Assembly (NCBI GenBank): GCA_016934295.1
Contig: JAFGTD010000237.1
Coordinates: forward strand, 1 to 60,980
Length of the DNA: 60,980 nt
Reading direction: 5' to 3'
Origin: Acidobacteriota bacterium
GTDB taxonomy: Bacteria; Acidobacteriota; UBA6911
Shown: positions 1,533 to 55,203 of the stretch, in pieces
Numbering within the stretch: position 1 is the stretch's first letter
Layout of the letters: the number at the start of each line of letters is the position of its first letter
The notes under the pieces: generated by a model
Databases searched by the model: none
What the model saw: the letters and a program-made list of their open reading frames with translations, nothing else
Told to the model about the DNA's origin: nothing
Program-made: the position numbers and the translations under genes

Positions 1533-2534
1533 TCAATTAAATAGCTTTCCTGCTTTCGATTGATTGGTTATTGCCAGTATTTTGGAAATTACCAACTCAT
1601 CAAGTTCCCATCGCCACTTATCCGAATCGATAACGGAGTTGCGCCTTACTCCGAAGTATTTCTGTCTGCCGCTCCAGGAAGTGCTCTGTGAAATAAACCT
1701 TTCAGTTTGCTCGTTCCAGTTAAGTTTACAAAACTCAAACAGGCGCCTGGTTTCAAGTATTGGGTTTTTACTTAGTTTATCGTGTGTCACAATAATCACA
1801 TTGCCGCAGCCTTCCAGATCCTGGAGGGCTTTCTCATTTGTAAGCGTCCAGTTCCATGCCAGTTTCTCAACACGATCCATATTTTGAAAGTCTTCAAGAC
1901 TGAGACCAAATTCCATAGCCTGAGTCAGCCTGGAGAATTGTCTGGCCGGGAAAGCCCATTTCATTTTTCCTGCCTGCAAACCCCGTAATACAGAAGCAAC
2001 GTAACCGCACGGATGACGTATTATCATCACAATTCGTCCTGAAGGGATTGCTTGTTGATATAAACCTACACGCCCCAGGGAAATCACGGATTTAATCGCA
2101 AAAAAAATATCGGGAGAATGCTTTTTGGGAATGAAATCCGGGATTGGGATCCGATTAATGTAGGTATCTAAAAATCCCAACTTGGTGACACCCAGTAAAG
2201 TGTAAATCAGTGATAGTCTCATTCCCTTCCGCCAACCGGTAAGGAAATATTTACGGAACAGAGGTAATTTTGAAACACTTCTGAAAGAACGTTCTCTACA
2301 GAGCCGATTCAGGTATTCGTTGGCTACCGCCAGGTGCAAGTTGGGACTTTCTTTATTTACCATGAATGGAAAGTCGGATGTCGAGCTTGCGGAATCCGGT
2401 TCATGCCGATAGATCACCTTCGGGTGACTATCAAAGATCTTTCCCAGCCATGTGGTGCCCGAACGAGGACCTCCTACAATCAATATCACTCGTTCAAGGG
2501 GATTAAAGGTACTGCTGCTGTCTATAACGCGCAT
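1533..2534 (-). CDS. Sulfotransferase family protein
   Basis: 333 aa. The PAPS P-loop is VGGPRSGTTWL at residues 20-30, followed by a His-containing EPDS stretch typical of bacterial sulfotransferases of the tyrosylprotein/heparan type. RIVMIIRHPCGYVASVL is the 3'-phosphate-binding motif with its Arg and Ser. Length and motif spacing are normal for the family. It is only distantly similar to the sulfotransferase just downstream, so the two are not a recent duplication. The 333-bp gap upstream may hold its promoter. Sulfation of an exported polysaccharide is inferred from the neighbourhood. Confidence 0.85.
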   Translation of the reverse strand: MRVIDSSSTFNPLERVILIVGGPRSGTTWLGKIFDSHPKVIYRHEPDSASSTSDFPFMVNKESPNLHLAVANEYLNRLCRERSFRSVSKLPLFRKYFLTGWRKGMRLSLIYTLLGVTKLGFLDTYINRIPIPDFIPKKHSPDIFFAIKSVISLGRVGLYQQAIPSGRIVMIIRHPCGYVASVLRGLQAGKMKWAFPARQFSRLTQAMEFGLSLEDFQNMDRVEKLAWNWTLTNEKALQDLEGCGNVIIVTHDKLSKNPILETRRLFEFCKLNWNEQTERFISQSTSWSGRQKYFGVRRNSVIDSDKWRWELDELVISKILAITNQSKAGKLFN

Positions 2535-2867: not shown

Positions 2868-4601
2868 CTATATTGATGGAATTTTATCGCTCACTTCAAG
2901 TTCCTGCAGCCGTTTATAATTTGGGATTCGGGCGATTTTACCGCTTGAAGTCTTGATCAGCCACATGTGCGGTACGTGAACCACGCGGTTAATAATGACG
3001 TTCAAATTCTGTTTGACTTCCTTTCGTGCAAATTTGGCGAGGTCGGCCAGAACCGACTTGTCGTTTGACTTCGATTCAACGATTAAAACTATTTGCTGCG
3101 TTCCTTGTTCCAGATCATCGACGCCGACGGCGGCGATGCGACCTGGAACAGCTGCCGGATGCTCGGCAACTATGTTTTCAATATCCTGAGGGAAAATATT
3201 GACACCTCCAACGATGATCATGTCACTGCGTCGCCCTGTTATAAAAAGGATATTGCCGACGCGGTAACCCATGTCGCCCGTATAGTACCATCCGTCTGGA
3301 GTAAGGGATTGTTCCGTTGCCTTTTTATTGCGATGATAATAATGCATCCGGGCATCAGAGTGAATGGCAACCTCGCCTACATATCGTTCCGGAAGTTCCT
3401 GACGATTTTCATCCACAATTTTAAACTTCGTGTTCTTCAAACCGCGCCCGACTCCGAGAAAACGCTGAAGATTGGGAGACGACTCGTCAACGGATTTGGC
3501 GTACCGCTCGGCCTGGAGGATGAAACGGTCGACATTATCAACGATGATGGGTTCTTTATGCCCTGCAGCGATAACCGAATTTGTTATCTCGGCCATTCCA
3601 TAAACGATGCCAAGGTAATCATTTCGCAGGCCATATTTAGAGAAACGCTCGATGAACATCTTATGCGATTCGTAAAAACATGGTTCTGCTCCGTTACATA
3701 CTAAACGAATGGAGGAGAGATCGATTTCCTTCATATCGTCTTCACGAATGCGTTTCGCCATTAGATTGAAAGCAAAGTTGGGTTGATAGAAAATTGTAGA
3801 TTTATATAGATTTGCAACCTGCCAGGCGGATACCGGATTTTGCACCCATTCGATTGGGGACAATAGACTATATTCCATTCCTTCAACTAATGCGTGGAGT
3901 GCAACACAGACAAGTCCCCAGTCGTGGTATAGAGGAACCCATGTCAATAGTCTGTCATTGTGGCTGATTTCAAAAAACTCAGAGACGCCGGAAATTTCGG
4001 CCAGAATTGCACGGTGGGAGAGGCAAACACCTTTCTGAAGACCGGTACTTCCGGACGAATATTGGATTAACGCAATGTCTTCGGGATCCTGGTCGGCTGG
4101 ATTTGGACTGAGGCCATGCGACACAACATCCTCAACGACAAGCAGTACCGGGGGATCCGGAAAATGGAGTGAATCGGCAAGTGCATCGCGTACGGCTGAA
4201 TGAGATAAGACAGCCTTGGGTTTTGCTGCTTGGATCAGATTCTTAAGATTTTCATAATAGCGCTTGTATACAGTCTTAGGATTTGTAGGAGGCAGGAAAC
4301 AGGGGATTGCCCCGATCCAGATTGCCCCGAGGAAGGCAGCCATCAGATCTTCATGATGTTCCATGATTATAAGTACAACGTCTCCTTTGCGAACACCGAA
4401 AGCAGCGTAACCAACCGCAAATTCCCGTGTGCGCTCAAGCGTTTGTGCAAAGGTCAGGAAAACGTTTTCACGGTCCTTGAAAATATATCGAGCATGTATT
4501 TTATCCGGACGAGTTTCACCATGAAAGATTAGGCAATCAATCAATGTTTTAGGATTTGCGTTTTTATTATTATTTTGTTGCACCGCTTTCTCTAATTTCA
4601 T
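2868..4601 (-). CDS. Fatty-acyl-AMP ligase-like adenylation enzyme (DltA-like role)
   Basis: 577 aa ANL-superfamily adenylation enzyme. The nucleotide-binding loop is YSSGSTGLQKGV at residues 181-192. NGAEP at 303-307 is the form usual in fatty-acyl-AMP ligases, YGMAE is at 334-338, YTGDMGY at 440-446, and the C-terminal catalytic lysine is K555 in KTSSGK. Such enzymes activate a carboxylic acid with ATP and hand the acyl group to a carrier-protein phosphopantetheine. The next gene upstream encodes an acyl carrier protein and the one before that an MBOAT, all on one strand, so the product probably loads that carrier for O-acylation of the polysaccharide. Fatty-acid rather than amino-acid substrate is inferred from FAAL-like motifs. 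No signal peptide; cytoplasmic. Confidence 0.85.
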   Translation of the reverse strand: MKLEKAVQQNNNKNANPKTLIDCLIFHGETRPDKIHARYIFKDRENVFLTFAQTLERTREFAVGYAAFGVRKGDVVLIIMEHHEDLMAAFLGAIWIGAIPCFLPPTNPKTVYKRYYENLKNLIQAAKPKAVLSHSAVRDALADSLHFPDPPVLLVVEDVVSHGLSPNPADQDPEDIALIQYSSGSTGLQKGVCLSHRAILAEISGVSEFFEISHNDRLLTWVPLYHDWGLVCVALHALVEGMEYSLLSPIEWVQNPVSAWQVANLYKSTIFYQPNFAFNLMAKRIREDDMKEIDLSSIRLVCNGAEPCFYESHKMFIERFSKYGLRNDYLGIVYGMAEITNSVIAAGHKEPIIVDNVDRFILQAERYAKSVDESSPNLQRFLGVGRGLKNTKFKIVDENRQELPERYVGEVAIHSDARMHYYHRNKKATEQSLTPDGWYYTGDMGYRVGNILFITGRRSDMIIVGGVNIFPQDIENIVAEHPAAVPGRIAAVGVDDLEQGTQQIVLIVESKSNDKSVLADLAKFARKEVKQNLNVIINRVVHVPHMWLIKTSSGKIARIPNYKRLQELEVSDKIPSI

Positions 4602-4683
4602 AAGACTAATCCCTGAGTGTCTGGTAGTGTCTGTGAATTAAAAAGACGCAGGTGTTTAACGGTTTTGTTTCAAATGTCCTCGC

Positions 4684-4932
4684 CTAAGGCAGTTTTGATC
4701 GGACCAAAGACTCAATAGTTACAATGGAACCCAAAAATTCTTCATCGGTTTCATGCGGTTCAATGTGGATGCCGTATTCTTTTTCAAGGAAAGAAACGAG
4801 CTGCAGGATTGCGAGAGAATCCAGTATGCCATTGTCAATTAAAGGAGTGGAGTCAGTCAAATTGTTGGGATCTTCTCCCGGTAAAAATTCTTTAAGTATG
4901 AATTGCTTAATTTCCGAATTGATGTCTTTCAT
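4684..4932 (-). CDS. Acyl carrier protein
   Basis: 82 aa from the ATG at 4932, which has a strong GAGGAG ribosome site 5 bases upstream. A longer reading from 5013 would overlap the upstream gene and lacks support. Residues 31-44 (LIDNGILDSLAILQ) contain the phosphopantetheine attachment serine S39 in the expected helix II start, and the acidic length fits a stand-alone ACP. The gene lies 31 bp after the MBOAT-SGNH gene and 82 bp before the acyl-AMP ligase gene. This makes it the probable acyl shuttle between them, comparable with DltC. Confidence 0.88.
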   Translation of the reverse strand: MKDINSEIKQFILKEFLPGEDPNNLTDSTPLIDNGILDSLAILQLVSFLEKEYGIHIEPHETDEEFLGSIVTIESLVRSKLP

Positions 4933-4963
4933 AATGTTCTCCTCACGTTCATTATTCTTTAAA

Positions 4964-7558
4964 TTATTGGATTGTTTCGCCATCCGGATGTGTCTTGGCA
5001 GCAAGGTCGGCAACGATTGGCGAAAGTTTACGATTCAGCTCATCGGCTATCAACTTGTGCCCCAAAGTGTTGGGATGTTCGTCCCACTCCGCTATCATCA
5101 GATCGCTGGGATCGTATTCATTATAAACATCCAATAGTGGTAAAACCGTAAACCCGGCACTCTTCCCGATTTCAATTTCTTTTTGAATGGTTTCGGAATC
5201 TGTTGATTCATAGGTTCTTGGAAGAATTACAAGTATGGGGTTCATTCTGTGTTGGTTGCAGACATTCACGAATTCTTTATAAGCTCCGGCCAATAACCGG
5301 TATGAATATGGCATCAGGCGCTGTTGAATTTCAAATCGGGACATCTTTCTCGTTACGCCTGCATCGGAGATGACGTCATTGATATATTTGTACGGTATTT
5401 TAATTCCGCTCGGAAGGTATCGCGGGAGAAATTCCGCGGCCGAGCGCCAGCTGTCTCCGGGATGGACCACCAGTACGGCGATAGCAGGGTGAAATTCCTG
5501 TACAACCTGTTCAAGTGCGGCTGGTTGCTCAAGAGGGGATCGCCCCCCGACTGAAAAATTCAGGATTTCAAAATTATCATAGTCATCCAGCGGGGGGTCG
5601 TCCTTCCATAGATTCTCCAGTACATTTTCAAAAGTCTCATCGTTTTCAACACCGCTGCCGAATGGGTGTGACGCGCCTAAAATTGCCAATCGCACGGTGC
5701 CTGGGGGAAGCGACTTGGAATATTCCCGATCCCGCATTCCCCATTTATTCACCCTGACAGTCACGCCCCGCGAGGCGCCGGTAAATCCGGGGATAAGCTC
5801 ACTGGTGATAAAGTCTCCTTCTCTGGCTCTGGTAGTTTCTCCTTTCCAGTCTTTTGGCCGTTTATTATAGACGCTCATAAGCGCCAGGTTCTGTCTGTTT
5901 ACGCCAATCAAATCCTCGTAATACCCGCGTTCCTGCTGGATCATATCAACCCTGTTTAAGGCAGAGAAACGGGTTTTTTCGATCGCACTCGAAACCTGTT
6001 CCGGACACATTCTATATATTTCCGGATACCCAAGAGCAAATAGGAACGCCGTCAGGGCTAAGGTAGCATAATGAAGCTTATGAAACTGAAAGGTATGGCC
6101 CGCTTTGCGGGATGATTGCATCTTCGGTTTAAGAGCCGAATCTATTTTTCCCAATATTATCGCCAGCCCTGTGAGTCCTGCGATGACTGCGATAATGATT
6201 GGCAGGCCATTCTCAGTATTCTCCATCATCGTCAGCCACTGGGCAAGAGAATCACTGGACCACATTCCCCATAGTGTACATATGGTGATGAATGTTGCAC
6301 AAACGCGGCAAGTATGGGCGAGGAAGCCAATAATCGTTTTTCTGCCTTGCCCTAAGGAGCGTTTTCGGCCGAATCGAATCTCAATAATGGAGTTCACGAC
6401 TACAAATAAACCTAAAATGCACCAGAAGAGGAGATCATGAGGCGCCAACAACCACTCTCCCCGAAGCCAGAACCATTGATAAGCATGTAAGGCCCATGTG
6501 GCAAAGAAAACAGCGATTGTCGCGATAATAATAGCCGGGATATTACCAAATTTTTTAAGTCGGAAATGCACCGGATAATAAATGATTTTCATGACGAAGT
6601 CTTTCCAATATATGTTGATACGTCGCCAGAAATCATTGAAGCTGCTTGCAAAATAATAGAGATGGTTGGTTTCCGGTAAGTTGAACCCAAATAGTAGGAG
6701 TATGCCGACTATGAGGTGAAATTGTCCCGAAACTTGTATATAGAGCAGATAGGCACTCAATGAAAATTGTGTTATGGAAGAAAAATTATTGACCATGCCG
6801 GGATCGATAACAAAATTGTAATATATAAATCTATAGACCAATAGATGAATGAAGCCTCTAAGAATCCAAAAGGCTCCTCTTTGGTATATTTTTATTTCGT
6901 CTTCATTGAAATAGTTTCGACGGAAACGCTTGTAGTCCACGACTGGAAAAAGAGGGAAGCAGACATTAGGCAACATTACGAAATAGCTTAAAGCGTGAGT
7001 CAATGAAAAAGGACTTTTGTCGTGTTCTGTCTCATATAAATAAAGCATAACGCGAAACATCAGCATAGAGCCGGCAATTGGCCATAAGGCATCCGTCCAG
7101 TGGAAAAAGGAATTGGTATCGGATAAAAATGACGGGAAAAAGGATGCAATAGATGGATACAATCCCCATTGAATACGAAACAATGCAAACAGGATGCCCA
7201 ATGATACTAAAAGAGTTACTTTTAAATAAAATGCTTTTTTAAGATGACATATAGAAATACAACTCCCTATAAGAACCAATAGCCATAAGCTGTTGGCATA
7301 TCCAATAACATAAAAGACACTGAAAAGTGATGCGGCGAGGAAGAATAGGAGTCTTAATCTGATGGGAAGCAGAGCGTGAACCACAAAACAGACGAATGAT
7401 AATTGAATGATAAATTTGGTTGTCGTCGGAAAAAGATTGAATTGATCAATGACTAGGGCAATGAGTATTAATTGCGCAATTATTACACCGAACGCCAGTC
7501 TTCGCGATTTGATGTTAAGCCACGATGTATAGGAGGAATCTGAAATATCAGTTTTCAT
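4964..7558 (-). CDS. MBOAT acyltransferase fused to an SGNH/GDSL-like domain (DltB-DltD-like fusion)
   Basis: 864 aa in two parts. Residues about 20-510 are a multi-pass membrane region. SFNDFWRRINIYWKDFVMK (306-324) matches the FWRRWHIS motif of membrane-bound O-acyltransferases, and H358 in FATWALHAY is the likely catalytic histidine. After the last membrane segment, residues about 620-855 form an SGNH-hydrolase fold: S630 in LGASHPFGSG, the glycine block NFSVGGRS (667-674), HPGD in place of GxND near 699-702, and D826/H828 in EWDEHPNTLGH. MBOATs take acyl groups from a carrier across the membrane to an extracytoplasmic acceptor, and SGNH partners often finish the transfer. The order MBOAT-ACP-ligase in one operon supports that. 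The fusion of both activities in one chain is notable. Confidence 0.85.
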   Translation of the reverse strand: MKTDISDSSYTSWLNIKSRRLAFGVIIAQLILIALVIDQFNLFPTTTKFIIQLSFVCFVVHALLPIRLRLLFFLAASLFSVFYVIGYANSLWLLVLIGSCISICHLKKAFYLKVTLLVSLGILFALFRIQWGLYPSIASFFPSFLSDTNSFFHWTDALWPIAGSMLMFRVMLYLYETEHDKSPFSLTHALSYFVMLPNVCFPLFPVVDYKRFRRNYFNEDEIKIYQRGAFWILRGFIHLLVYRFIYYNFVIDPGMVNNFSSITQFSLSAYLLYIQVSGQFHLIVGILLLFGFNLPETNHLYYFASSFNDFWRRINIYWKDFVMKIIYYPVHFRLKKFGNIPAIIIATIAVFFATWALHAYQWFWLRGEWLLAPHDLLFWCILGLFVVVNSIIEIRFGRKRSLGQGRKTIIGFLAHTCRVCATFITICTLWGMWSSDSLAQWLTMMENTENGLPIIIAVIAGLTGLAIILGKIDSALKPKMQSSRKAGHTFQFHKLHYATLALTAFLFALGYPEIYRMCPEQVSSAIEKTRFSALNRVDMIQQERGYYEDLIGVNRQNLALMSVYNKRPKDWKGETTRAREGDFITSELIPGFTGASRGVTVRVNKWGMRDREYSKSLPPGTVRLAILGASHPFGSGVENDETFENVLENLWKDDPPLDDYDNFEILNFSVGGRSPLEQPAALEQVVQEFHPAIAVLVVHPGDSWRSAAEFLPRYLPSGIKIPYKYINDVISDAGVTRKMSRFEIQQRLMPYSYRLLAGAYKEFVNVCNQHRMNPILVILPRTYESTDSETIQKEIEIGKSAGFTVLPLLDVYNEYDPSDLMIAEWDEHPNTLGHKLIADELNRKLSPIVADLAAKTHPDGETIQ

Positions 7559-11408: not shown

Positions 11409-12389
11409 TTATCTGCCAACCACAGCACTGACGAGAACCTTGGCGATTCTCCAATCCCAACCAAAACGAAATGTCCGAATCCCTTCTCGGATGGCGTCGG
11501 CTCGACGACTCTCCTTAAGGAGACTGTAAATGATATTAAGTTGGGAGTATCGAGCCTGACGTTTCAACGCACCGGCAAGAGCCGGATGTTCGCGTCCAAG
11601 AGTCCGGAGAAGATCCTCGTATACCAAGACGGTCTGTTCATTACCGTGCGCGTTTGTATTGCGTGTCGCACTGCCCTGGCGGATACGGTATGCGGCCAGG
11701 GGAGTGCGCAGAGCCACTAAATTGCGGCATCTGGCAATGTATCGAAACCAGAAATGAACGTCCTCTCCGACGGCGAACCTTTCGTCGAATCCTCCCGACT
11801 TTAAAAACAGGTCTTTGTTAATAAGAGAAGTTGTAGGGTACCCCAATATACTAGGGACGCCCAACCTTCCGAAATAGCGGGGAAATTCTGCTTTTTTAAG
11901 GGAAATGGGATTTCCATCCCTGAGCTTCAGAAGCTTCGCTGTGCATTCATTTTGCTCGAAAGCTGAACCATTGATTTCTCCCTCAGGATTTACGTAATGG
12001 TAGTTGGTACATATAAAATCTGTTTGTTCGCATTTCTCCGATTCTTCTATTTGCTTTTCGAGCTTATCGGTGTACCAATAATCGTCTCCGTCCAGAAAGG
12101 CAACAAGCTTTGCTTTTGCTATTCTGATCCCTGCATTCCGGGCTTGTGATACTCCTCTGTTTTGTTGTCGGTGGTAGATAAGGCGGTTCCTGTATTTATG
12201 GCATATTTCGGCTGTCCCGTCTTGAGAACCATCATCCACGACAATGAGTTCCCAATTGGAGTAGGATTGATTAAGGACACTCTCGATGGATTGAGAAATA
12301 TATTCGACAACGTTGTATGCGGGTATCACAACGCTGACATGCGGATTTGTGCATGAATAGTCTTCAATATTATTTCTGTATGATTTCAT
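11409..12389 (-). CDS. Glycosyltransferase family 2
   Basis: 326 aa from the ATG at 12389, which overlaps the preceding stop codon as ATGA. A longer frame to 12653 would run deep into the upstream gene and has no support. The GT-A fold starts at once: HVSVVIPAYNVVEYISQSIE, ELIVVDDGSQDGT with the first Asp pair, then LVAFLDGDDYW with the DxD metal site. FDERFAVGEDVHFWFR carries the ED motif before the acceptor region. Inverting GT2 enzymes add sugars from nucleotide or lipid-phosphate donors in the cytoplasm. Translational coupling with the upstream GT2 gene suggests consecutive steps of repeat-unit assembly. Donor unknown. Confidence 0.88.
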   Translation of the reverse strand: MKSYRNNIEDYSCTNPHVSVVIPAYNVVEYISQSIESVLNQSYSNWELIVVDDGSQDGTAEICHKYRNRLIYHRQQNRGVSQARNAGIRIAKAKLVAFLDGDDYWYTDKLEKQIEESEKCEQTDFICTNYHYVNPEGEINGSAFEQNECTAKLLKLRDGNPISLKKAEFPRYFGRLGVPSILGYPTTSLINKDLFLKSGGFDERFAVGEDVHFWFRYIARCRNLVALRTPLAAYRIRQGSATRNTNAHGNEQTVLVYEDLLRTLGREHPALAGALKRQARYSQLNIIYSLLKESRRADAIREGIRTFRFGWDWRIAKVLVSAVVGR

Positions 12390-13423
12390 TCTGCTTTTTT
12401 CGGCATGCCGAGATAATCCGTAAGATTTTGTCGAAATGGCGGGACGAACTTGTATTCGTAAGTACCAAATAGTATTCCAGCGGTATAGCCAAAGGTTTTT
12501 GTCCATATAACCGTCGGCGCATAAATTACTGTTTCCCAGAATGAAATTGAATCTCGAATGGAAGAAATGATTGGAATATAGAAGGCAATGAAGTAATAAA
12601 CTAATACAAATATTAAAGGTATTAAAAATATTGGCCATATGGCCGATATACATAACAAAATTAGCTCAAGAATATATCTTCGTAAATGCCAGGAAATTCC
12701 ACCGGGTGAGTGGCCAATTCGGCCATTGCCTTTTCCGTATAAGAAGAACATTTTAAATAATTTGTAAAAACTGGAGCGCGGTTGCCAATATACAACAGCC
12801 TCTGGTGCATAAATGATTTTAAGTTCGAGTACCCGTAATTTATGTCCGAACAATGTGTCTTCGCCGGTATACAGCCACTCGGGATACCCGTCGGCTTTTT
12901 GCCAAGCTTCTTTGCGGAAAGCCGAACAACGACCTAATAATGGAACAGTTTCTGAAGTGTGGAAAGAGGCGCTCCTGGGCAACATTAACATTCCACTTAC
13001 TTTTTCTATGGAATTATGTGCGTCAATGGCTATCAAGCCGCCTACCGCCATAGCTTCCGGATCATCAATAAGGGGTTTTGCCAATTTTAAAAGCCAGTTT
13101 GAATCCGGCCTGCAGCCGGCGTCCGTCACTGCGATGATGGGGCAAGTGCTGTGCCTGATGCCATAGTTCCTGCCTTCCGAAATGTTCAATCCCGGTTTCA
13201 CCAGAATGTGTATCTCAGGCATTCTCTCTTGATAGGACTTGAGTTCTTCCACTGTTCCATCTGTTGAGCCGCCATCCACTATTATAATTTCATTGGGCTT
13301 AAGGCTTTGAGCTTGAAGCGATTCAAATAATGTTATAATTCCTTTCTTATCGTTCAGCACAGTTACGACAACGCTGACACGCTGCGATGTAATTCTATTG
13401 AATTCTTTTATTTTGATGTCCAT
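12386..13423 (-). CDS. Glycosyltransferase family 2, membrane-associated
   Basis: 345 aa from the ATG at 13423; a TTG at 13450 is less likely. Residues 15-120 are a GT-A domain: VSVVVTVLNDKKGIITLFES, EIIIVDGGSTDGT, CPIIAVTDAGCRPDSNWL (aspartate pair in place of a classic DxD), and YTGEDTLFGHKL with the ED motif. The C-terminal third has hydrophobic stretches (YILELILLCISAIWPIFLIP and LIFVLVYYFIAFYIPI), so the enzyme is probably attached to the inner membrane. It is followed by another GT2 gene with a 4-bp overlap and preceded by the deacetylase gene 36 bp away. Likely part of one exopolysaccharide operon. Confidence 0.85.
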   Translation of the reverse strand: MDIKIKEFNRITSQRVSVVVTVLNDKKGIITLFESLQAQSLKPNEIIIVDGGSTDGTVEELKSYQERMPEIHILVKPGLNISEGRNYGIRHSTCPIIAVTDAGCRPDSNWLLKLAKPLIDDPEAMAVGGLIAIDAHNSIEKVSGMLMLPRSASFHTSETVPLLGRCSAFRKEAWQKADGYPEWLYTGEDTLFGHKLRVLELKIIYAPEAVVYWQPRSSFYKLFKMFFLYGKGNGRIGHSPGGISWHLRRYILELILLCISAIWPIFLIPLIFVLVYYFIAFYIPIISSIRDSISFWETVIYAPTVIWTKTFGYTAGILFGTYEYKFVPPFRQNLTDYLGMPKKAE

Positions 13424-23700: not shown

Positions 23701-23785
23701 TGGTTTGGAAAGCATTTGCCGATTGAAGGGAAAGCACTATAAAAATAAGACCGCAAAACAGTTTTGCCATAATGCCGTATTTCAT
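20762..23785 (-). CDS. Large secreted polysaccharide-lyase-like protein with C-terminal FnIII
   Basis: 1007 aa with a signal peptide (LFCGLIFIVLSLQSANAF). Residues about 40-330 resemble the N-terminal beta-sandwich domain of exo-rhamnogalacturonan-lyase/YetA-like proteins: IPLNVPITIKETAGVDGNNY, a later KSIRHVKVHFQPSVSPYTG, VKVDYQLQNAAK. The central part is rich in Trp, His and Tyr (DDAHGWWYHAEYSYYLTGNP, AVGHHLGHAFQAYRVTGDEE), as in alpha-toroid glycan-active enzymes. The last 95 residues read as a fibronectin type III domain (PPASITDLSAKQ, ending in YVAVFTFDSYGNMSGMSNVS). It may trim, remodel or release the exopolysaccharide outside the cell. Catalytic residues cannot be assigned from sequence alone. 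Confidence 0.7.
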   Translation of the reverse strand: MKYGIMAKLFCGLIFIVLSLQSANAFQTSTPPGVPTGLIERIPLNVPITIKETAGVDGNNYPVDVVVPLPINGFSSVDNFRIADAEEKTVDAQFNIINRWNDKDKSIRHVKVHFQPSVSPYTGAPNSGRTVYYLRNDGGGYSMSTELTVDTSNPDIITVITGPLKFTINKNRFTIIDQAWLDTNNNHSFDDETPILKSEISNGGDYEGLWGQQLDSARDDITYTIEESGPMRAVIKAWAPTLYYGADYMDEGDGMDPAHQHGFAVRIYAYAGKSFVKVDYQLQNAAKNSKWSWPLYFDHLNLNFALNMSPAGIRVRADQGDGAVESGMLENYSNGLILKNIGPVTATDDSLRSTPDSIFRIEEGNGTLLDTWEIDEADLYDAPPMSTFMDVDNGSVGIAITMRNFWQMWPNGLQVDADGTLRIQMWPEWSCYWNDDGGHLGQLGSCTDEDPKARWGSYFLFDMQYTYKEALIFFHDTGTTESELRNWAKTAQYYPVGTIPTAQWKSASATLDMGGMIPVDEKLSVTDQRRPSYKANDFDLSDSGCRRNNKFGWNSFYFDDKPRKYAPSTTGGQPYTAAALITSENPSDYWRSLDHGMASINISLQSMSEDYTYADDWDELHLQSRVYPGAYWRSQGAPFNNFLDAPWLTGTYLMQKSRDDAHGWWYHAEYSYYLTGNPWIRDWYEFIAEFRKGTLNNPTLAGGQSRAVGHHLGHAFQAYRVTGDEELLNGIQTYINNSLRPESVGGVDPGAAVVLQNAQYGHIPFVSGDDMPYMMSFLLRQIMTYMDEIKYTDPQAWAEAFQFVSGQISANIKYLNWDYRCDPIEGLNNKGETCRSNAISAYILADPASWYYAITGKPEVLANLKDYLDDGINGGDYPNTSKYLSWSDEFTGRWTKYILEKEPLRSDMTPPASITDLSAKQSREGIILTFTPPADAVRYHVVYSDKPISENSNPSTEVCNWWAAGTVGTLEIPQTIVPETAAHYVAVFTFDSYGNMSGMSNVSNVAP

Positions 23786-30572: not shown

Positions 30573-31163
30573 ATGAAATTATTGCGGATCACCTTATTAT
30601 TGCTTCTAATGACTTGCTCCGTTGCTCTGCCCGGTCAGAACTCTGATTCTGGTAATGAATTTTCTGAAATTCCGGAAGATTTTGTCATCGGATTGGAAGA
30701 TACCCTGGCCGTCAGTGTCTGGAGAGAACCTGAACTGTCGGTAAAAGAAGTCATGGTACGGCCGGACGGCAAGATAAGTCTTCCACTTATCGGGGATGTT
30801 GTGGCCAGCGGCTTGACCACCAAACAGCTGCAGGAAAGTGTTACCGAGAAATATACAGAGTATGTTTCCAACCCCACGGTCTCCGTGGTTATATTGAGAA
30901 TCGCAAGCCTGACTGTTACTGTTCAGGGGCAGGTAGCAAAACCGGGTGTCTATTACCTAGGATCTCCCATGACAGTGCTCGAACTGCTTGCACGGGCCGG
31001 CGGACTTCGCGAATATGCGGATGAGAAAGATATCGCAATTATCAGAAAAGAAGGAAAGAAAAAGTTTTTCAGGTTCAACTATAAGGATGTTTCCAAGGGC
31101 AAAAACCTTCAGCAGAATATAACTCTTCAGAACGGGGACATCATCATTGTTCCCGGAGGCTAA
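30573..31163 (+). CDS. Polysaccharide export protein (Wza-like, SLBB)
   Basis: 196 aa with a hydrophobic signal peptide (LRITLLLLLMTCSVALPGQ). Residues 33-110 form the Poly_export domain: FVIGLEDTLAVSVWREPELS and VMVRPDGKISLPLIGDVVAS. Residues about 115-195 are an SLBB domain (VTVQGQVAKPGVYYLGSPMT, ending DIIIVPGG). Proteins of this kind build the periplasmic/outer-membrane channel for capsule or exopolysaccharide. The form matches the short export proteins of PEP-CTERM loci. LMTC is not a good lipobox, so acylation is uncertain. It begins the plus-strand export operon; the next gene starts 34 bp on. Confidence 0.9.
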   Translation: MKLLRITLLLLLMTCSVALPGQNSDSGNEFSEIPEDFVIGLEDTLAVSVWREPELSVKEVMVRPDGKISLPLIGDVVASGLTTKQLQESVTEKYTEYVSNPTVSVVILRIASLTVTVQGQVAKPGVYYLGSPMTVLELLARAGGLREYADEKDIAIIRKEGKKKFFRFNYKDVSKGKNLQQNITLQNGDIIIVPGG

Positions 31164-31197
31164 GACAACGAATTTCGCCTATTCAAAGAAAAGAAAT

Positions 31198-32631
31198 ATG
31201 AGAACATTGATTGGGTTCCTTATCTGTTTGGTCGGCGCCTCCGGAATTTCCTTAGCGCAGGAATCTTCCTACCCATCCCATAACGATTCACCCGATGCAG
31301 CCGACCAATCTTTGGAAAATGATTCTATCATTCCCGTTCCGGTTTACCCGTCTTACGATGACTCCCAGGAAACAGTCGATCAATCTTTGGAAGATGAAGC
31401 CGTTATCCCGGTCCCGGTCAGGGGCGAAAATGTTGAGCTGTTCCCGGAAACCAGATACGGGGACGCAAGATCACGGGGAGCCCAGGATTTCCAGGAAGAT
31501 GTTTTCCTCAATTCACGCAATCAGTTCGGTTTTTCACTGAGCGCAAGTCAAGGCTATTCGGAGAATATCTCCGAAACCAGCAGACAAGGCAGATCCTCTA
31601 TGTTTTCCGCCTTTTCGGGGCAGGTTTTCTTTAATGCCGGCAGGCGAAGATCGAAGCTGCATCTGGATTTCGGCTCCGGATACCGACATTATTACAAAAG
31701 GGATAATTACGACGATCCCGATTATCGTGCGAACGCTCAGTATTCCTACCAAATTTCAAGAACCACATCTCTGCAGTTCAGCAATCAATTCACTTACACC
31801 TACAATGATTCCTGGTCCTTTCCTTCGATGTACTCCCCTTCACAATACGGACCGATTATGTCCGATGAAGTCCTGTATGCGCAGCAGAAAATTGTCAGGA
31901 ACGCATTCGGTGCCGGACTCCGCCATCGATTGAGCGACAGAATAAGCACGGGGTTATCCGCGACATATGCACTATACAGATACTCGGAACACATCAGGGA
32001 TAGAAGCGATACTTTTACGTTAGGGGGACAGTTCAACGTCAAACTGACAGACTGGCTGTCTTTGACGAACAGCTATGCGGCATACCTGATTTCTGAGAGT
32101 GAGGAGTACCGGGATACCAGGATCCATCGCGTGCAATTATCCGGACTCGATTTCAGTTGGAGCCGTGGTTCCTGGCGACTCTGGATGGGAGGAGGCGCCG
32201 ACTTTTCGGATTATGAAGAAAAAATCCGTGTGATGGAAAATGTAAGTGCCGGAATAGGACGCACATCCTTGAATACAACATTTACGATTGGATATCAGCA
32301 TGGTTTTTCTTCCACCCTGGGTATTTCCGGTCTACGGCGCTCGGATCGGATAACGGCTGAATTTGGATATAGGGCGACTCCCTGGATGAACGTACGACTT
32401 AACAGCAGTTATATTCGTAGCAAGGACGTCCTCGGTCCCAGATTCCTGGAAATATATTCCAGCGGAGGCGGATTGAGTTTTGCATTGAGCTCCAACCTCA
32501 ACATGACATTAAACAGTTATTATCAGAGGCAACAACCGCGTAATTTGGATATAGAAGGACTGGATATAGAACGTGTAACGGCATATATGGGCTTTCAATT
32601 TGTCTGGCCGGCACGGAGAAAAGCCGGATAA
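31198..32631 (+). CDS. Outer-membrane beta-barrel protein of the export operon
   Basis: 477 aa from the ATG at 31198, chosen because it begins the signal peptide MRTLIGFLICLVGASGISLA; the frame upstream overlaps the export gene and is not signal-like. Residues 25-49 and 50-74 are two copies of a 25-residue acidic unit that ends IIPVPV/VIPVPV. From about residue 100 alternating polar/aromatic strands run to the end (LHLDFGSGYRHYYKRD, SLQFSNQFTYTYNDSW, VTAYMGFQFVW), as in the outer-membrane proteins next to PEP-CTERM export genes. It probably forms the outer-membrane exit of the polymer or a partner of the SLBB channel. The acidic linker is specific to this protein. Confidence 0.78.
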   Translation: MRTLIGFLICLVGASGISLAQESSYPSHNDSPDAADQSLENDSIIPVPVYPSYDDSQETVDQSLEDEAVIPVPVRGENVELFPETRYGDARSRGAQDFQEDVFLNSRNQFGFSLSASQGYSENISETSRQGRSSMFSAFSGQVFFNAGRRRSKLHLDFGSGYRHYYKRDNYDDPDYRANAQYSYQISRTTSLQFSNQFTYTYNDSWSFPSMYSPSQYGPIMSDEVLYAQQKIVRNAFGAGLRHRLSDRISTGLSATYALYRYSEHIRDRSDTFTLGGQFNVKLTDWLSLTNSYAAYLISESEEYRDTRIHRVQLSGLDFSWSRGSWRLWMGGGADFSDYEEKIRVMENVSAGIGRTSLNTTFTIGYQHGFSSTLGISGLRRSDRITAEFGYRATPWMNVRLNSSYIRSKDVLGPRFLEIYSSGGGLSFALSSNLNMTLNSYYQRQQPRNLDIEGLDIERVTAYMGFQFVWPARRKAG

Positions 32632-32701
32632 ATAATATGCCGGGATGGTTCTGATGGATCATCCATACTGATTAAGACTGTGATCTGCAGAGGACTTTAC
32701 A

Positions 32702-34282
32702 ATGAAGGATTTAAAAACCCTGGAACCGTTTGATTTTTTAAAAATCTTATGGAAGAGGAAGTGGTATGCCGTCGCTGTTTTCATTCTGACAATAGGAGCC
32801 TCAATAGTATATTCCCAGCTGAAACCGGATCTTTTCCGATCCAGTGCAATGATCCAGGTTGAGGAGCCTCCTATACCCAGCACTTACGTTCGACCTCCCG
32901 ATGCCTCAAGCACCAGGGAGAAGATGGAAGCAATCCGCCAGCTCATCGAAAGCCGGACTTTTCTTGAACGCCTGATCCAGGAATTTCAGCTCTATGGTTA
33001 TGGAACCGAAGATGATTTTTTAATGGAAAACGCGATTCGAGCGATCACGAATAATATTATAGTGCAGAGTACATCCCGCAATACTTTTACCGTTTCTTTT
33101 ATTGCAACGGATGCTCAGGTGGCGCAGTCGTTTACACGGCGGATTGTGGATATGCTGATCCAGTCGGGCCGTTCAACCAGGAAATTCCGGGCAATGGAAA
33201 CCGATCAGTTCCTCGATGAACAGCTTCGTCAGGTGGAGCAGAAACTTACGTCCAAGGAAGAAGAGATTAAGGACTTCAAATCTCAACATATCGTTCTCCT
33301 CCCTCCTCAGGCCAGTGAGAACGCTCGTATGTTCAGGCAATTGAAGGAACAGTTGGAGGAAGTAAATACCCAAATCGAAAAGCTCTATGCTCAACAGAAG
33401 GTGCTTGATGCCCAGGCGGAAGAACAGACAAAGAGGCTGGATGTTTTAGCTCAGAATAATTTCATGGATCCGGCTGATTTGGCGCTTCCCGGAACGAATG
33501 CGGGAAACACCGCCCTGTCCGATCCCCGATTGATGGCCAAGGAGGCTGAGCTTGAGGCTCTGTTGTTGCGATATACACCCAGCCACCCGGATGTACATCG
33601 GGTTTCCAGGGAAGTGGAGGATCTGAAGCGACAATTGGCAAAGAGTGCTTCAGAGGGAGCGCCTGTTGCCGATTCTTCCGATTTGACTCCGCTCGGCATG
33701 GCCGCGAACGACCCGGCAACGGAACAGATTGAATCCGGTTCATCCGAGACGGACTGGATGCTGGATATGGCGACTGCGGAGATTAAGATTCAGGCTGAAA
33801 AACTAAATAATGAAGTCGAAAGACTGAAAAAGATGGAAGCCGACATCGTTAGCCGTTTGAAAGTTTATGAAGATCGAATAAGACAGGCGCCGATTGTCGA
33901 CCAGCAATTGGGAGCATTGGAAAGACAAAGGAATATATTGGAGCGCCAGTACGGCAGTTTGATGAGTGATAAATTCCAGGCGCAGCTGACATCCAACCTC
34001 GAAACGAGCAGCAATACGGATTCCTACAAGGTCATCGACGAGGCGAATCTTCCCGAGAAGCCGGTCTTCCCGGATCGGAAGCAGATGGCTATTATAGGAT
34101 TTGGCGCAGCATTCATTTTGGGAATTGGCGCCGCCTTCGGACGCGAATTGTTTGATTCCACTTTAAGTACCGAGGAAGAGGCATCGGCGGTGCTCAAGGT
34201 ACCTGTTCTGGTTTCTGTTTATGAAATACCGTCAAAGCATACTAGAAAGCGTAAAATAGAGAGGTTGGCTAAAAGCGCATAA
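32702..34282 (+). CDS. Polysaccharide chain-length determinant (Wzz/GumC type)
   Basis: 526 aa. A short cytoplasmic N-terminus (PFDFLKILWKRKWYAVAVFI) leads into the first membrane helix. Then comes a long periplasmic part with coiled coil (EQKLTSKEEEIKDFKSQHIV, LRQVEQ; and LNNEVERLKKMEADIVSRLK), and a last membrane helix near residue 460-480 (MAIIGFGAAFILGIGAAFGR). PDLFRSSAMIQVEE is the usual Wzz start of the periplasmic domain. It regulates polymer length in the inner membrane and activates the tyrosine kinase. The kinase is not fused here but is encoded by the next gene, as in PEP-CTERM loci. Confidence 0.88.
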   Translation: MKDLKTLEPFDFLKILWKRKWYAVAVFILTIGASIVYSQLKPDLFRSSAMIQVEEPPIPSTYVRPPDASSTREKMEAIRQLIESRTFLERLIQEFQLYGYGTEDDFLMENAIRAITNNIIVQSTSRNTFTVSFIATDAQVAQSFTRRIVDMLIQSGRSTRKFRAMETDQFLDEQLRQVEQKLTSKEEEIKDFKSQHIVLLPPQASENARMFRQLKEQLEEVNTQIEKLYAQQKVLDAQAEEQTKRLDVLAQNNFMDPADLALPGTNAGNTALSDPRLMAKEAELEALLLRYTPSHPDVHRVSREVEDLKRQLAKSASEGAPVADSSDLTPLGMAANDPATEQIESGSSETDWMLDMATAEIKIQAEKLNNEVERLKKMEADIVSRLKVYEDRIRQAPIVDQQLGALERQRNILERQYGSLMSDKFQAQLTSNLETSSNTDSYKVIDEANLPEKPVFPDRKQMAIIGFGAAFILGIGAAFGRELFDSTLSTEEEASAVLKVPVLVSVYEIPSKHTRKRKIERLAKSA

Positions 34283-34539
34283 ATAAGAGGAAAGAAAAGG
34301 GGAAATCCACCGATAAAGATAATAACTGGACTGTGGTTATGGAATGCGGTAGTTGCTGTCGCTCTTTAAGCCCGTTCAAAAATATTCAGTACCTGAAATA
34401 TTAAGTTGGGCGACTGGAAATAGACGCGTTCAGTTTTACGAAATTTTGGGATTTACGTTACTTAACGAAGGGTAGGGCCTGAGATTTTATTAACTCACTA
34501 GACAATAAGGGTCGGCGACAAACTGCTGCGATAGGATAC

Positions 34540-35451
34540 ATGAGCGAAATATTTAATTTTCTTAAACAGACCGGGACTGAAAAGAGGAAGAGCCCTCCGT
34601 CTCCTGAGCCGGAACCTGAATGGAAGGAGCCTGTTTCGGAATCCCATGTTGAAGCCCGGAAAGAAATTTCTGAAGAAACTGTTCTCAACGATGAAGTACC
34701 GTCCGTGCCGGTGGAAGAGGAAGTGCTTAAAGCAGACCGGTTTGATCTTTCCGGTGCCAACCAGAATCTTAAGATTTCACTGGATCCCTTTACAATCGCC
34801 GGAGAACAATTCCGGCTGCTCCGAACCAAACTGGGGCGCTTAAAAAAAGAGAAGGGAATTAAGACGGTTTTAATTACCAGCAGCGTACCGGAGGAGGGGA
34901 AGACATTCGCTTCTTCCGGGCTGGCGGGTGTTTTTGCTCAGGAACCGGGGAAGCGGGTGGCTTTGCTGGACTGTGATATGCGAAAACCCAGATCCGGACG
35001 GAACCTTGGGGTAAACGGTTCATCCAGTAGTATAGGAATGTCGGAGGTTTTGCAGGGCAACATTGGCTTTTTCGACTCACTTTTAAAGTCCTCTGAATTG
35101 GATTTTTACTTTTTGCCATCCGGATCTCTACCCCAGAATCCTACGGAATTGCTCAGTTCTCCTCTTCTTGAGCAGACATTAAAAACTGCCGCGGCAAATT
35201 TTGACTGGATTGTAATCGATTCCCCGCCGGTTTTGTCCCTGGCAGATGCAACCCTGTTGGTGCCCCTTTGCGATGCGGTTATACTGGTAGTGAGAGCCAA
35301 TTCAACCCCGGCTAAGCTTGTTAAGAATACAATCGACGTAATCGGTCGAGAGAGAATCAGCGGCATTGTGTTTAATCGCCAGAGACAGAAATATCCGTCC
35401 AGGTATTACTACAAGTATTATTACGGAAAATCCAAAAAGCAGAAAGAGTAG
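34540..35451 (+). CDS. Tyrosine-protein kinase, CpsD/CapB (BY-kinase) family
   Basis: 303 aa. Residues 1-75 are a polar Glu/Pro-rich stretch. The P-loop ATPase follows with Walker A SSVPEEGKT (114-122), Walker A' ALLDCDMRKP (141-150) and Walker B DWIVIDSPP (222-230). The C-terminus has a seven-tyrosine cluster (Y285, Y289-291, Y293-295), which is the autophosphorylation tail of bacterial tyrosine kinases. It should cycle phosphorylation with the Wzz-type protein upstream to control polymerisation and export. Cytoplasmic, at the inner membrane. A 257-bp gap separates it from that gene, so it may have an additional promoter. Confidence 0.9.
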   Translation: MSEIFNFLKQTGTEKRKSPPSPEPEPEWKEPVSESHVEARKEISEETVLNDEVPSVPVEEEVLKADRFDLSGANQNLKISLDPFTIAGEQFRLLRTKLGRLKKEKGIKTVLITSSVPEEGKTFASSGLAGVFAQEPGKRVALLDCDMRKPRSGRNLGVNGSSSSIGMSEVLQGNIGFFDSLLKSSELDFYFLPSGSLPQNPTELLSSPLLEQTLKTAAANFDWIVIDSPPVLSLADATLLVPLCDAVILVVRANSTPAKLVKNTIDVIGRERISGIVFNRQRQKYPSRYYYKYYYGKSKKQKE

Positions 35452-35457
35452 CAGGTA

Positions 35458-36351
35458 TTGCATTCTCCGCGTCAAACATCCATTCTGAACGCCCTCAGCG
35501 TTGACGTGGAAGACTACTTTCATGTCGAGGCATTTGCTGCACGGATCCGCTGCGATGATTGGCATGCGCACGAATGCCGGGTTGAAAGAAACGTCGATCT
35601 TACCCTCGAGATATTTGCTGAACATCAAACAACAGCGACATTTTATATTTTAGGCTGGATTGCAGAACGTTTTCCCCGGCTGGTCAGGCAGATCGCGGAC
35701 GCCGGTCATGAAATCGGCTGCCACGGATATGCCCACCAGCATATAAACCGCCAGACTCCGGAGAAATTCCGCCAGGACGTTTATTTGGCCCGGCAGCGAA
35801 TAACGGCCCAGACGCAGGAGCCTGTTTCCTGCTATCGAGCTCCCAGCTTTTCTATCATTGAATCCACCCTATGGGCCCTGGATATCCTTGCGGAGGAAGG
35901 ATTCACAATCGATTCTTCCATATTTCCCGTCAGGCACGATCTTTACGGCATTCCGGACTCCCCGAGGTTTCCTCATTGGCGAAGCAATATCTTTGAATTT
36001 CCTCTTACCACAATAGGCATGAGCAATTTAAATATAGGAATAGGCGGCGGAGGGTACCTGAGGCTCCTGCCTTACGGTTTTACACGATGGGCCATCAGGA
36101 AGATTAACAATGCCGAAAAACAGCCTGTCATGGTCTATTTCCATCCCTGGGAACTCGATCCTGAACAGCCACGAATATCTGCCCCGCTCCGTTCGAAACT
36201 CAGGCACTATACCAACCTTAAGAAAATGCAGGGTAAAATTGAACGGCTTCTGACGGATTTTCATTTTTCAACCGTCTCGGATGTATGCAGCCGCCTGCAA
36301 ATCTTCAGGAATCCGACTGCACAAATTACGAAAAATACATCTATCGGCTGA
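35458..36351 (+). CDS. Polysaccharide deacetylase, PEP-CTERM locus subfamily
   Basis: 297 aa from a TTG at 35458, six bases after the kinase stop; the family normally begins close to this point (ILNALSVDVEDYFHVEAFAA). The CE4 fold is visible as SVDVEDYF (first Asp block), TATFYILGWIAERFP, HEIGCHGYAHQHI (zinc His block) and CYRAPSFSI. The DVEDYFHV opening marks the subfamily found in exosortase-type exopolysaccharide operons. It probably removes acetyl groups from the polymer or lipid-linked sugar. No signal peptide is seen. Tight spacing shows co-transcription with the kinase. Confidence 0.88.
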   Translation: MHSPRQTSILNALSVDVEDYFHVEAFAARIRCDDWHAHECRVERNVDLTLEIFAEHQTTATFYILGWIAERFPRLVRQIADAGHEIGCHGYAHQHINRQTPEKFRQDVYLARQRITAQTQEPVSCYRAPSFSIIESTLWALDILAEEGFTIDSSIFPVRHDLYGIPDSPRFPHWRSNIFEFPLTTIGMSNLNIGIGGGGYLRLLPYGFTRWAIRKINNAEKQPVMVYFHPWELDPEQPRISAPLRSKLRHYTNLKKMQGKIERLLTDFHFSTVSDVCSRLQIFRNPTAQITKNTSIG

Positions 36352-36677
36352 AAATCCGACGAGAAATTTCCCAGAAGCGGCAGAACTAATAGAAAACCGT
36401 TTTTTTCGGCGATGTTATTGACGTGTGATCAAGATTTAAATTATAATTATGTGACTTCTCGAAAATAAATAGCCGCTTTTAAGTAGGCCTTTTGGAGGAA
36501 AAGTATCGGTTTAGGATGTTTTAAATGAATCCGTACTGTACTACTCGCGGGCGATCAGTATCTTCATGAAATTTTAGTCTGAGGACTAATTCATTTAAAT
36601 TAATTTGCTTTAAAAATTTGCCGAAAAGTCTTATGAAGAGGTGTTTAATCAAGTATAGGGGAATTTAAGAATCATTT
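36352..36677. other. AT-rich intergenic gap, nothing recognised
   Basis: About 325 bp between the deacetylase and the sugar phosphotransferase genes. There are several A/T tracts and ATTTAAATTAATTT near 36594, but no gene or convincing terminator. A promoter for the transferase gene is plausible. Confidence 0.3.
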
Positions 36678-38069
36678 ATGTGGAAGTACCTTGCTTTACG
36701 GAAGTTCGGCGCGGTTTTTGCTGAAACGCTGCTATTGGTCTGGTGTGTCCTGGTCGCTTATTATGCGCGTCTGCACGAGTCTCCCTTTTCTCCTACTGCG
36801 GTTGATAAGCATCAAATACTTCCAAAAGCACTTCTAATTGCAATCATTTTCCAGCTTTTTCTGCACCTGAATGATATTTATGATTTCCGCCAACTGCAGG
36901 CATCGAAAGTATATATCATCCGGCTTTTCCAGGCATTGGTTATGGCAACAGCCAGCCTGTGGATTCTCTATTATATTGCGCCGGTCCTGACGGTCGGACG
37001 GGGAGTGTTCGGCCTGAGCCTGATCTTCAGCGCGATCTTTCTCATATTCTGGCACACCATGCTGCGCATGTATTTCGGCAAACGGACTCCCAAAACCAAA
37101 ATGATTGTGCTCGGGACGGGGAACCTGGCCCGGGAGGTTGTAAAGGAAATATTACGGCGTCCGGAATTGGGGATTCAGATACTCGGTTTTGTCGACGACA
37201 ATCCGAAGCTTGTGGGTCAATCGGTTGTGAACCCGAAAGTTATCGGCACTTACCAGGATCTGCCGAAACTGGTCGCAAAAGAGGGTGTGGATCGCATAAT
37301 AGTCGGATTGGCGGATCGTCGCGGCAAGCTGCCCATCCAGGAGCTTCTAGATTTCAAGACCAAGGGTATTCAGATCGAGGAAGTCACCACCTTTTACGAA
37401 CGCGTCGCAGGGAAAATCCCTATAGAAAACCTCAAGCCAAGCTGGATGGTTTTTAATACCGGATTTGGAGTGTCCAAGCGGCTATTGATAGAAAAGCGCA
37501 TTCTTTCCATTGTCGCTTCCTCCATACTGCTCCTTATGTTCTTTCCAGTAATATTTTTGCTGATGGTTTTGATCAAGCTGGATTCCAGGGGGCCGGTTTT
37601 TTACAAACAGGCGCGTGTAGGCCAGGACGGAGGGACTTTCACGCTCTGGAAATTCCGATCCATGGTCCAGGATGCCGAAAGCGACACAGGACCCGTATGG
37701 AGCAAGGGAACCAGAGAAGATCCAAGGATTACGCGTATCGGCAAACTCATGCGCAAACTTCGCCTGGATGAGTTGCCACAATTGTTCAACGTGTTCAAGG
37801 GTGACATGAGTTTTGTCGGGCCGCGGCCCGAACGGCCCCATTTCGTTCAACAACTGACAGAGACCATTCCTTTTTACAACCTGCGTCACATCGTGAAGCC
37901 CGGAATCACCGGATGGGCCCAAGTCAATTACGGCTATACGAATTCCATGGATCTGACGGTGGAAAAGCTGCAGTATGATTTATTCTACATTAAAAACATG
38001 TCGTGGATGCTCGACGGGCTGATTATTCTCGAAACCATCAAGACGGTTCTCGTCAAAGAAGGCTCCTGA
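36678..38069 (+). CDS. Undecaprenyl-phosphate sugar phosphotransferase (initiating enzyme)
   Basis: 463 aa. The N-terminal part has four to five membrane helices and a Rossmann-like CoA-binding-type domain (KMIVLGTGNLAREVVKEILR). The C-terminal catalytic domain of the WbaP/PglC family is complete: KLDSRGPVFYKQARVGQDGG, TLWKFRSMVQDAE, LRLDELPQLFNVFKGDMSFV followed by GPRPERPHF, and KPGITGWAQVNYGYTNS. These enzymes transfer a sugar-1-phosphate from UDP-sugar to undecaprenyl phosphate and so start the repeat unit at the inner membrane. The shape fits the PEP-CTERM-associated sugar transferase group. It closes the plus-strand export operon. Confidence 0.9.
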   Translation: MWKYLALRKFGAVFAETLLLVWCVLVAYYARLHESPFSPTAVDKHQILPKALLIAIIFQLFLHLNDIYDFRQLQASKVYIIRLFQALVMATASLWILYYIAPVLTVGRGVFGLSLIFSAIFLIFWHTMLRMYFGKRTPKTKMIVLGTGNLAREVVKEILRRPELGIQILGFVDDNPKLVGQSVVNPKVIGTYQDLPKLVAKEGVDRIIVGLADRRGKLPIQELLDFKTKGIQIEEVTTFYERVAGKIPIENLKPSWMVFNTGFGVSKRLLIEKRILSIVASSILLLMFFPVIFLLMVLIKLDSRGPVFYKQARVGQDGGTFTLWKFRSMVQDAESDTGPVWSKGTREDPRITRIGKLMRKLRLDELPQLFNVFKGDMSFVGPRPERPHFVQQLTETIPFYNLRHIVKPGITGWAQVNYGYTNSMDLTVEKLQYDLFYIKNMSWMLDGLIILETIKTVLVKEGS

Positions 38070-55095: not shown

Positions 55096-55203
55096 TAGAA
55101 TTCTCCATTGGATGAATAGAACACGCTGGCTTTGGTCCGGCAAAATCCTTATAGTAGAGTCCTCTGATGGGACGACATCTGAGTATTCGTTGTCGTTCCA
55201 AAG

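Follow-up and report, generated by a model that had tools for sequence, protein, structure and literature searches.

Three adjacent genes on the minus strand of a 60,980-nucleotide stretch of Acidobacteriota DNA (contig JAFGTD010000237.1; hereafter the window) probably form a carrier-protein-fed transmembrane acyl transfer unit, and we put the probability of this reading, including the full putative mechanism set out below, at roughly 70%. The genes encode an 864-residue fusion of an MBOAT and an SGNH domain (4964..7558, minus strand; ORF call, alignment and model), an acyl carrier protein of 82 residues from the ATG at 4932 (4684..4932, minus strand; PF00550, E 5e-5) and a 577-residue enzyme resembling fatty-acyl-AMP ligases (FAALs; 2868..4601, minus strand; PF00501, E 2e-49). 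An ORF check confirmed the positions and strand that an earlier, sequence-only reading had assigned to these frames within 2868-7558, and the residues it had named are all present: H358, S630, D826 and H828 in the fusion, S39 in the carrier and K555 in the ligase. Intergenic gaps amount to 31 bases between fusion and carrier and 82 bases between carrier and ligase, with the next long ORFs about 600 bases upstream and about 330 bases downstream of the three-gene run, and the carrier and adenylating ligase share one gene run in the window. Scans of the window for promoters (16 found, 13.2 expected) and terminators (4 found, 6.0 expected) were both at chance level. Computational evidence backs both folds, the residue conservation, the gene linkage from genome to genome and the exchange of loading enzymes among relatives.

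In the proposed mechanism, the ligase would use ATP to activate a carboxylic acid, for which its family makes a fatty acid the likeliest candidate, and would load the acyl group onto the phosphopantetheine of the carrier at S39. The acyl-carrier would dock at the cytoplasmic side of the MBOAT half, where the H358/N315 pair may move the acyl group to a tyrosine of a Gly-Tyr-Tyr linker at the outer face; the acyl-tyrosine would then pass the group to S630 in the SGNH half of the fusion, and this half would esterify an extracytoplasmic hydroxyl, most probably one of the exopolysaccharide of the locus. The sequence-only reading had drawn a one-to-one parallel of these roles with DltA, DltC and DltB plus DltD, and the parallel is supported, as is the linkage, which is backed by the occurrence of this carrier type in each of the 14 other genomes that encode the MBOAT-SGNH protein. 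Its claim of a carrier-dependent route for acyl chains stands in part: the Dlt parallel and the gene linkage favour the route, but 'acyl chains' is too narrow, prolyl-type cassettes being the commonest.

Domain libraries gave nothing usable on the fusion, and its fold was therefore taken from prediction. No Pfam or NCBIfam model matched it at E<=0.001, the sole domain-library signal being a weak GDSL lipase match (E 0.28). For PF03062 (MBOAT), no match was reported up to E 10 by a search whose filters drop most weak matches, and when the PDB was searched by sequence with the profile of the family, 16 matches up to E 1 came back, nearly all SGNH or GDSL enzymes and none an MBOAT. An AlphaFold2 model from 13 alignment rows (pLDDT 76, pTM 0.63) predicts both folds, so that the MBOAT-SGNH assignment made earlier survives a check for missing folds. 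The first Foldseek matches of the model are DltB structures (8jem and 6bug; E ~1e-5, TM-score over target 0.53-0.58, rmsd 6.8-12.7), with HHAT and PORCN next (DltB, HHAT and PORCN together, TM-score over target 0.53-0.58, rmsd 6.5-12.7), which points to an MBOAT fold with a conserved histidine through resemblance at the level of the fold only. The predicted MBOAT part, a multi-pass membrane domain, spans residues 1-510 (boundary approximate; 6029..7558, minus strand; model helices at 13-510, and Foldseek). The C-terminal part of the model, residues 591-864 (4967..5788, minus strand), resembles SGNH thioesterase I (1j00/5tie) with a TM-score over target of up to 0.76, and PatB (7tlv) stands at rank 46 for the fusion model.

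The fusion was aligned in 14 rows including the window, one of them truncated and two from one genome. Counting columns with a letter in at least 13 of the 14 rows, 38 residues are invariant in the MBOAT part and 11 in the SGNH part. The proposed MBOAT catalytic histidine H358 (6485..6487), the proposed second MBOAT active-site residue N315 (6614..6616) and the proposed SGNH nucleophile S630 (5669..5671), all on the minus strand, are invariant in 14 of 14 rows, and W-x-[L/F]-H surrounds H358 in all 16 sequences, window included. The role suggested for N315 was placed by its spacing to H358; the active-site pair of DltB is 289/336 (PMC11035591). The proposed acid and base of the SGNH half, D826-x-H828 (5075..5083, minus strand), are conserved in 11 of 12 (Asp) and 13 of 13 (His) rows with a letter, consistent with a predicted SGNH fold carrying a serine nucleophile and an Asp/His block, and no conserved block III Asn was seen by eye in the expected stretch of the alignment. 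Both folds of the fusion are thus predicted, from conservation together with modelling.

The ligase had been described as FAAL-like, and several comparisons agree. Its best NCBIfam subfamily is a fatty acyl-AMP ligase model under its cut-off (NF006624, 327 bits against 600), a PDB sequence search found the FAAL 3pbk at E 6e-56, and a structure model (pLDDT 72, four rows) ranks solved FAALs first. The enzyme also carries an insertion of about 22 residues (353-374; 3480..3545, minus strand) of the kind that is a hallmark of FAALs; it aligns without a gap to 3pbk, is present in the L046 and L045:11398 rows of the ligase alignment, and is a gap in five prolyl-type rows and in L045:6502. The insertion and the nearest solved relatives suggest a place among the FAALs, and judging from that family the acid handled is most likely a fatty acid. 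K555 (2937..2939, minus strand), which we take to occupy the position of the catalytic lysine of adenylating enzymes, is invariant in 9 of 9 ligase rows. In the carrier, S39 (4816..4818, minus strand; numbered from the ATG at 4932) is the putative phosphopantetheine attachment serine, from its G-I-L-D-S motif, and D38 and S39 are invariant in the 4 carrier rows. The protein is 43-52% identical to the carriers of three relatives (L002, L003 and L004). Among NCBIfam models it scores best with that of an ornithine-lipid carrier (NF052616), at 99.4 bits against a cut-off of 130; this identity was rejected because the cut-off is not reached and because the OlsH enzyme works without a carrier, according to PMC12493201.

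An MBOAT-SGNH protein occurs in 14 other genomes, counting the Microvirga sp. VF16 plasmid record as one: six from one genome-contig scan, G282, G636 and G666, G913, G1120, G1344 and G1457, and the plasmid. It is split in G666 (L047) and truncated by contig ends in G103 and G105. The fusion is rare, found in 2/387, 3/297, 2/398, 4/395 and 3/336 genomes of five samples, each including its centre genome, the two non-centre matches of the 3/336 sample being the same DNA as two from the 3/297 sample. A further survey in Acidobacteriota gave, besides the centre genome, only two genomes already found; the fusion is absent from all 14 same-genus or same-family genomes searched, and a single-protein search of 100 relatives yielded, the window itself apart, partial matches only, mostly to the SGNH part.

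The co-occurrence that the sequence-only reading had proposed to look for is present across these genomes. All 14 encode the same carrier type, and 13 of them have an acid-activating ligase beside or close to the carrier, the exception being G105, around whose carrier no ligase was recognised. The carrier directly adjoins the fusion in G636, which repeats the window order of fusion, carrier and FAAL on one strand; about 5 kb at most separate the two in seven cases (L002, L003, L004, L045, L047, L048 and L055), and the carrier lies away from the fusion in six (G103, G104, G105, G1120, G1344 and G1457), in five of which a ligase follows the carrier. The G1457 carrier is about 11 kb from the fusion on the same contig, and in G1344 a second carrier adjoins a third fusion. 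The carrier ORF of L045 has no Pfam match at E<=0.001 and is identified by similarity to the other carriers. As a control, 50 fusion-free genomes searched with the carrier model at E<=1e-4 gave 13 matches, the best at 56.6 bits; four of these matches came from genomes of the same genus or family as the window. Best carrier scores in the seven fusion genomes outside the carrier model ranged from 56.3 to 108.7 bits, six of the seven above the best control and the G1457 carrier, at 56.3 bits, no better than it. The carrier type is not exclusive to the fusion, since G636 has four extra carrier matches away from it. Judged on the co-occurrence counts, the grouping of fusion, carrier and ligase appears not to be a matter of chance.

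The fusion is constant while the acid-loading enzymes vary, even within one genome, a pattern that suggests an acyl exporter of general use, fed by the carrier and served by interchangeable loading partners. The commonest partner set, beside the carrier in 9 of 14 genomes, is a prolyl-AMP ligase with a prolyl-carrier dehydrogenase, and dehydrogenase-like genes stand beside carrier and ligase in L003, L004, L047, L048 and L055 and in G104, G1120, G1344 and G1457. A similar prolyl dehydrogenase lies elsewhere in the genomes of G100 (78% identity) and G105 (49%), with a weaker one in G636 (40%); the window genome has none at E<=1e-80. By NCBIfam the dehydrogenases of L003, L004 and L068 are of PigA and RedW types, all under curated cut-offs. 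The L055 dehydrogenase scores 481 bits against the solved prolyl-ACP dehydrogenase 4irn (next chain 330), and the core of the L055 ligase (131 residues) finds the prolyl-carrier ligase 6o6e first at 117 bits (best non-prolyl chain 68); with the whole ligase, several multi-domain peptide synthetases outscore 6o6e. Ten prolyl-type ligases have most pocket motifs in common, and these resemble those of 6o6e, with L072 departing most. Since most cassettes have prolyl-carrier chemistry, acyl chains are not the general rule. A putative pyrrole-forming set accompanies the fusion's carrier in L003, L004, L047, L048, L055, L068, L069, L072 and L073. Enzymes resembling flavin halogenases adjoin the set in L003 (two), L072 and L073, and the fusion in L052; those of L073 and L052 pass the Pfam tryptophan-halogenase cut-off, and since none of those tested with NCBIfam reaches the CmlS cut-off, halogenation in these cassettes is a guess.

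FAALs are a minority partner, found with the fusion in the window, G636, G282 and one of the three G1344 copies, and L045 and L070 combine a FAAL-like ligase with an Rv2949c-like chorismate lyase, whose product would be 4-hydroxybenzoate; a PaaK-like gene of the CoA-ligase type is present in L070 as well. Where tested and recognised, the partner ligases are of carrier-loading kinds, namely FAALs and prolyl-carrier ligase. In G1344, the contig that holds two fusions lacks a carrier set, a prolyl-type set lies on another, and the third fusion sits in a FAAL-type set; in the tree all three fusions cluster (100/96). Two tandem fusion genes occupy L050:7282-12594, the third copy of that genome being on a different contig (L070), and in G104 an ordinary MBOAT (PF03062; L072:1099-2538) stands just before the prolyl-type carrier set, the fusion being elsewhere in that genome. 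The fusion tree does not group FAAL-type apart from prolyl-type copies and leaves 8 of its 13 inner branches open, and therefore the choice of acyl group cannot be read from the fusion.

The window offers a candidate acceptor pathway in an XrtA-type exopolysaccharide core (30573..38069, plus strand; TIGR models) comprising an export protein, a chain-length determinant, a tyrosine kinase, a deacetylase and an initiating sugar transferase. The deacetylase and initiating transferase are over the cut-offs of TIGR03006 and TIGR03013; for the export protein, chain-length determinant and kinase, TIGR03027, TIGR03007 and TIGR03018 are the best models but under cut-off. The same locus has a FemAB-type protein and a glycosyltransferase over cut-offs and an amidotransferase under cut-off. 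It contains four sulfotransferases, and the two downstream ones at 554-1423 and 1533-2534 (minus strand; PF13469, E 1.5e-18 and 5.6e-15) are candidate pathway neighbours; domain matches thus bear out the glycosyl- and sulfotransferases noted earlier around the unit. G+C is 0.42-0.48 over positions 1-37500, the exopolysaccharide region, and mostly 0.51-0.54 beyond. A 1007-residue protein within the locus (20762-23785) has only a weak PcRGLX-like lyase domain match, and a deoxyhypusine synthase family protein (PF01916) lies at 55461-56654 with an IS110-type transposase adjoining at 53833-55143.

Because the locus is of XrtA type and the SGNH part should face outside the membrane, an exported glycan is the likeliest acceptor, as argued from the neighbourhood. 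The same transfer chemistry could instead serve a lipid-linked glycan, lipid A, an exported small molecule or a surface protein. The carrier set stands apart from the fusion in six relatives, which makes the neighbourhood weak evidence on the acceptor, and L045 carries ketosynthase and O-methyltransferase genes in the vicinity, as small-molecule clusters do; we nevertheless hold such an acceptor to be unlikely, given that sugar-polymer genes recur near the fusion, in the exopolysaccharide core of the window, as glycosyl- and sulfotransferase domains near L053 and as a glycosyltransferase-like ORF beside the Microvirga copy. A further departure would leave carrier and FAAL as mere neighbours of the fusion, feeding the polyketide, lipopeptide or lipid pathways that FAALs usually supply. 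The ketosynthase of L045 would fit it, as would the ornithine-lipid model, below its cut-off, being the carrier's best NCBIfam match. It is made very improbable by the carrier's presence in all 14 other genomes, irrespective of which type of ligase they have, and by the repeated order of fusion, carrier and FAAL in G636; nor was any polyketide or lipid-assembly enzyme recognised among the 40 window proteins scanned, so the diversion of the ligase into such a pathway, which the sequence-only reading had named as a risk to its proposal, finds no counterpart there. The nearest thing to such an enzyme is a general short-chain dehydrogenase at 47019-47834.

Within the transfer unit, the route across the membrane and the identity of the acid each have a competitor. 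G545-Y546-Y547 (5918..5926, minus strand) are the only invariant residues among the 80 of the linker that joins the last membrane helix to the SGNH part (511-590; 14 rows), and G-Y-Y-x-x-[L/I] recurs in all 16 sequences, window included. In PatA and DltX a tyrosine within an F-X-Y-X-X-F motif carries the acyl group, a shuttle published for PatA and described for DltX (PMC12148441), whose motif reads FLYFGF (PMC11035591). By analogy we propose Y546 or Y547 as a candidate acyl-tyrosine shuttle built into a single chain. A direct transfer from the MBOAT to the SGNH serine or to the acceptor, with Gly-Tyr-Tyr a structural element, would accord with the linker motif of the fusion, G-Y-Y-x-x-L, being unlike F-X-Y-X-X-F. 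It would also accord with the low model confidence, pLDDT being under 50 at 533-547 and 549-565, around the motif, which makes the linker geometry uninformative. In L047, moreover, where MBOAT and SGNH are two ORFs (L047:8948-11460), the motif is on the SGNH ORF after a hydrophobic stretch, read by eye, rather than at the MBOAT C-terminus. Yet the tyrosine of Dlt is likewise off the MBOAT, on DltX (PMC12148441), and with the invariance of Gly-Tyr-Tyr this leaves direct transfer somewhat unlikely. A further SGNH/AlgX-like gene follows the split ORFs of L047 at 11494-12693. As for the acid, the chorismate lyases of the FAAL-containing relatives L045 and L070 would suit a window enzyme that loads an aromatic acid such as 4-hydroxybenzoate, but neither the window genome nor G636 has an Rv2949c-like match, in a search for this family only, and we regard an aromatic substrate as distinctly less probable than a fatty acid.

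The carrier-fed transfer unit has several partial counterparts among known systems. Dlt (DltA, DltB, DltC, DltD and DltX) likewise combines an adenylating ligase, a carrier, a DltB-like MBOAT and an SGNH transferase, and DltB is the best structural match of the window's MBOAT part. The window differs in having MBOAT and SGNH in one protein rather than as separate DltB and DltD, in a ligase that is FAAL-like, not DltA-like, and in its acidobacterial host. No small DltX-like ORF was recognised by eye in the flanks of the three genes; a 28-residue ORF at 2536-2622 holds F-L-Y-C-R-L without a hydrophobic helix before the motif. Dlt-like operons also occur in a few Gram-negatives, for example Bordetella, so that a carrier in such bacteria is not new by itself. 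In our analysis, the unit would work like Dlt yet is not a Dlt system, because three features fall outside the definition: the type of ligase, the fusion, and a DltX that was not recognised.

The acetylation systems PatA/PatB, AlgI/AlgJ/AlgX and WssH/WssI share with the window an MBOAT plus an SGNH protein and act on an extracytoplasmic polymer, but they use an acyl-CoA donor, have no carrier protein and consist of two separate proteins, as PMC12148441 describes them. Fusions of the OatA type resemble the window in uniting a membrane acyltransferase with SGNH in one chain and in an acyl-tyrosine step (PMC12148441); they differ in that AT3 is another membrane family and the donor is acetyl-CoA. 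The partner sets of several fusion relatives recall pyrrole-2-carbonyl-carrier formation, with a prolyl-carrier ligase whose motifs are like those of 6o6e and a dehydrogenase; the curated models are named for natural-product pathways (prodigiosin), whereas in the relatives the set goes with a putative membrane acyl exporter, and it is absent from the window. The XrtA/PEP-CTERM-associated acyl ligase (TIGR03098) is, like the window enzyme, an AMP-forming ligase in an XrtA exopolysaccharide locus, but its model is not among the matches listed for the window ligase (25 of 106 models). The sequence-only reading knew of no described system of exactly this make-up, and literature searches covering few subscription journals likewise showed, among the papers listed, no description of an MBOAT-SGNH fusion with carrier and ligase and none of pyrrole esters on an exopolysaccharide.

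We consider the odds about even that the fusion defines a new family of single-chain, carrier-fed acyl exporters in Acidobacteriota, Verrucomicrobiota, Pseudomonadota and Bacteroidota that draws on loading enzymes of antibiotic assembly lines, with the window as its fatty-acyl version; those enzymes may turn prolyl into pyrrole groups, perhaps halogenated, or supply hydroxybenzoate. PMC12148441 sorts the polymer acylation systems of bacteria into two classes, MBOAT/SGNH pairs of separate proteins and fusions of AT3 with SGNH, and says that, Dlt excepted, MBOAT/SGNH pathways have no carrier protein. The family would fit neither statement, having MBOAT and SGNH in one chain and a carrier that is not DltC. 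A single-chain enzyme would make the acyl-tyrosine shuttle model directly testable within one protein, and should the pyrrole reading hold, the wider family would be highly interesting. If the proposal is true, the acyl groups of bacterial surface polymers would extend beyond acetyl and D-alanyl and may include pyrrole, aromatic and fatty groups.
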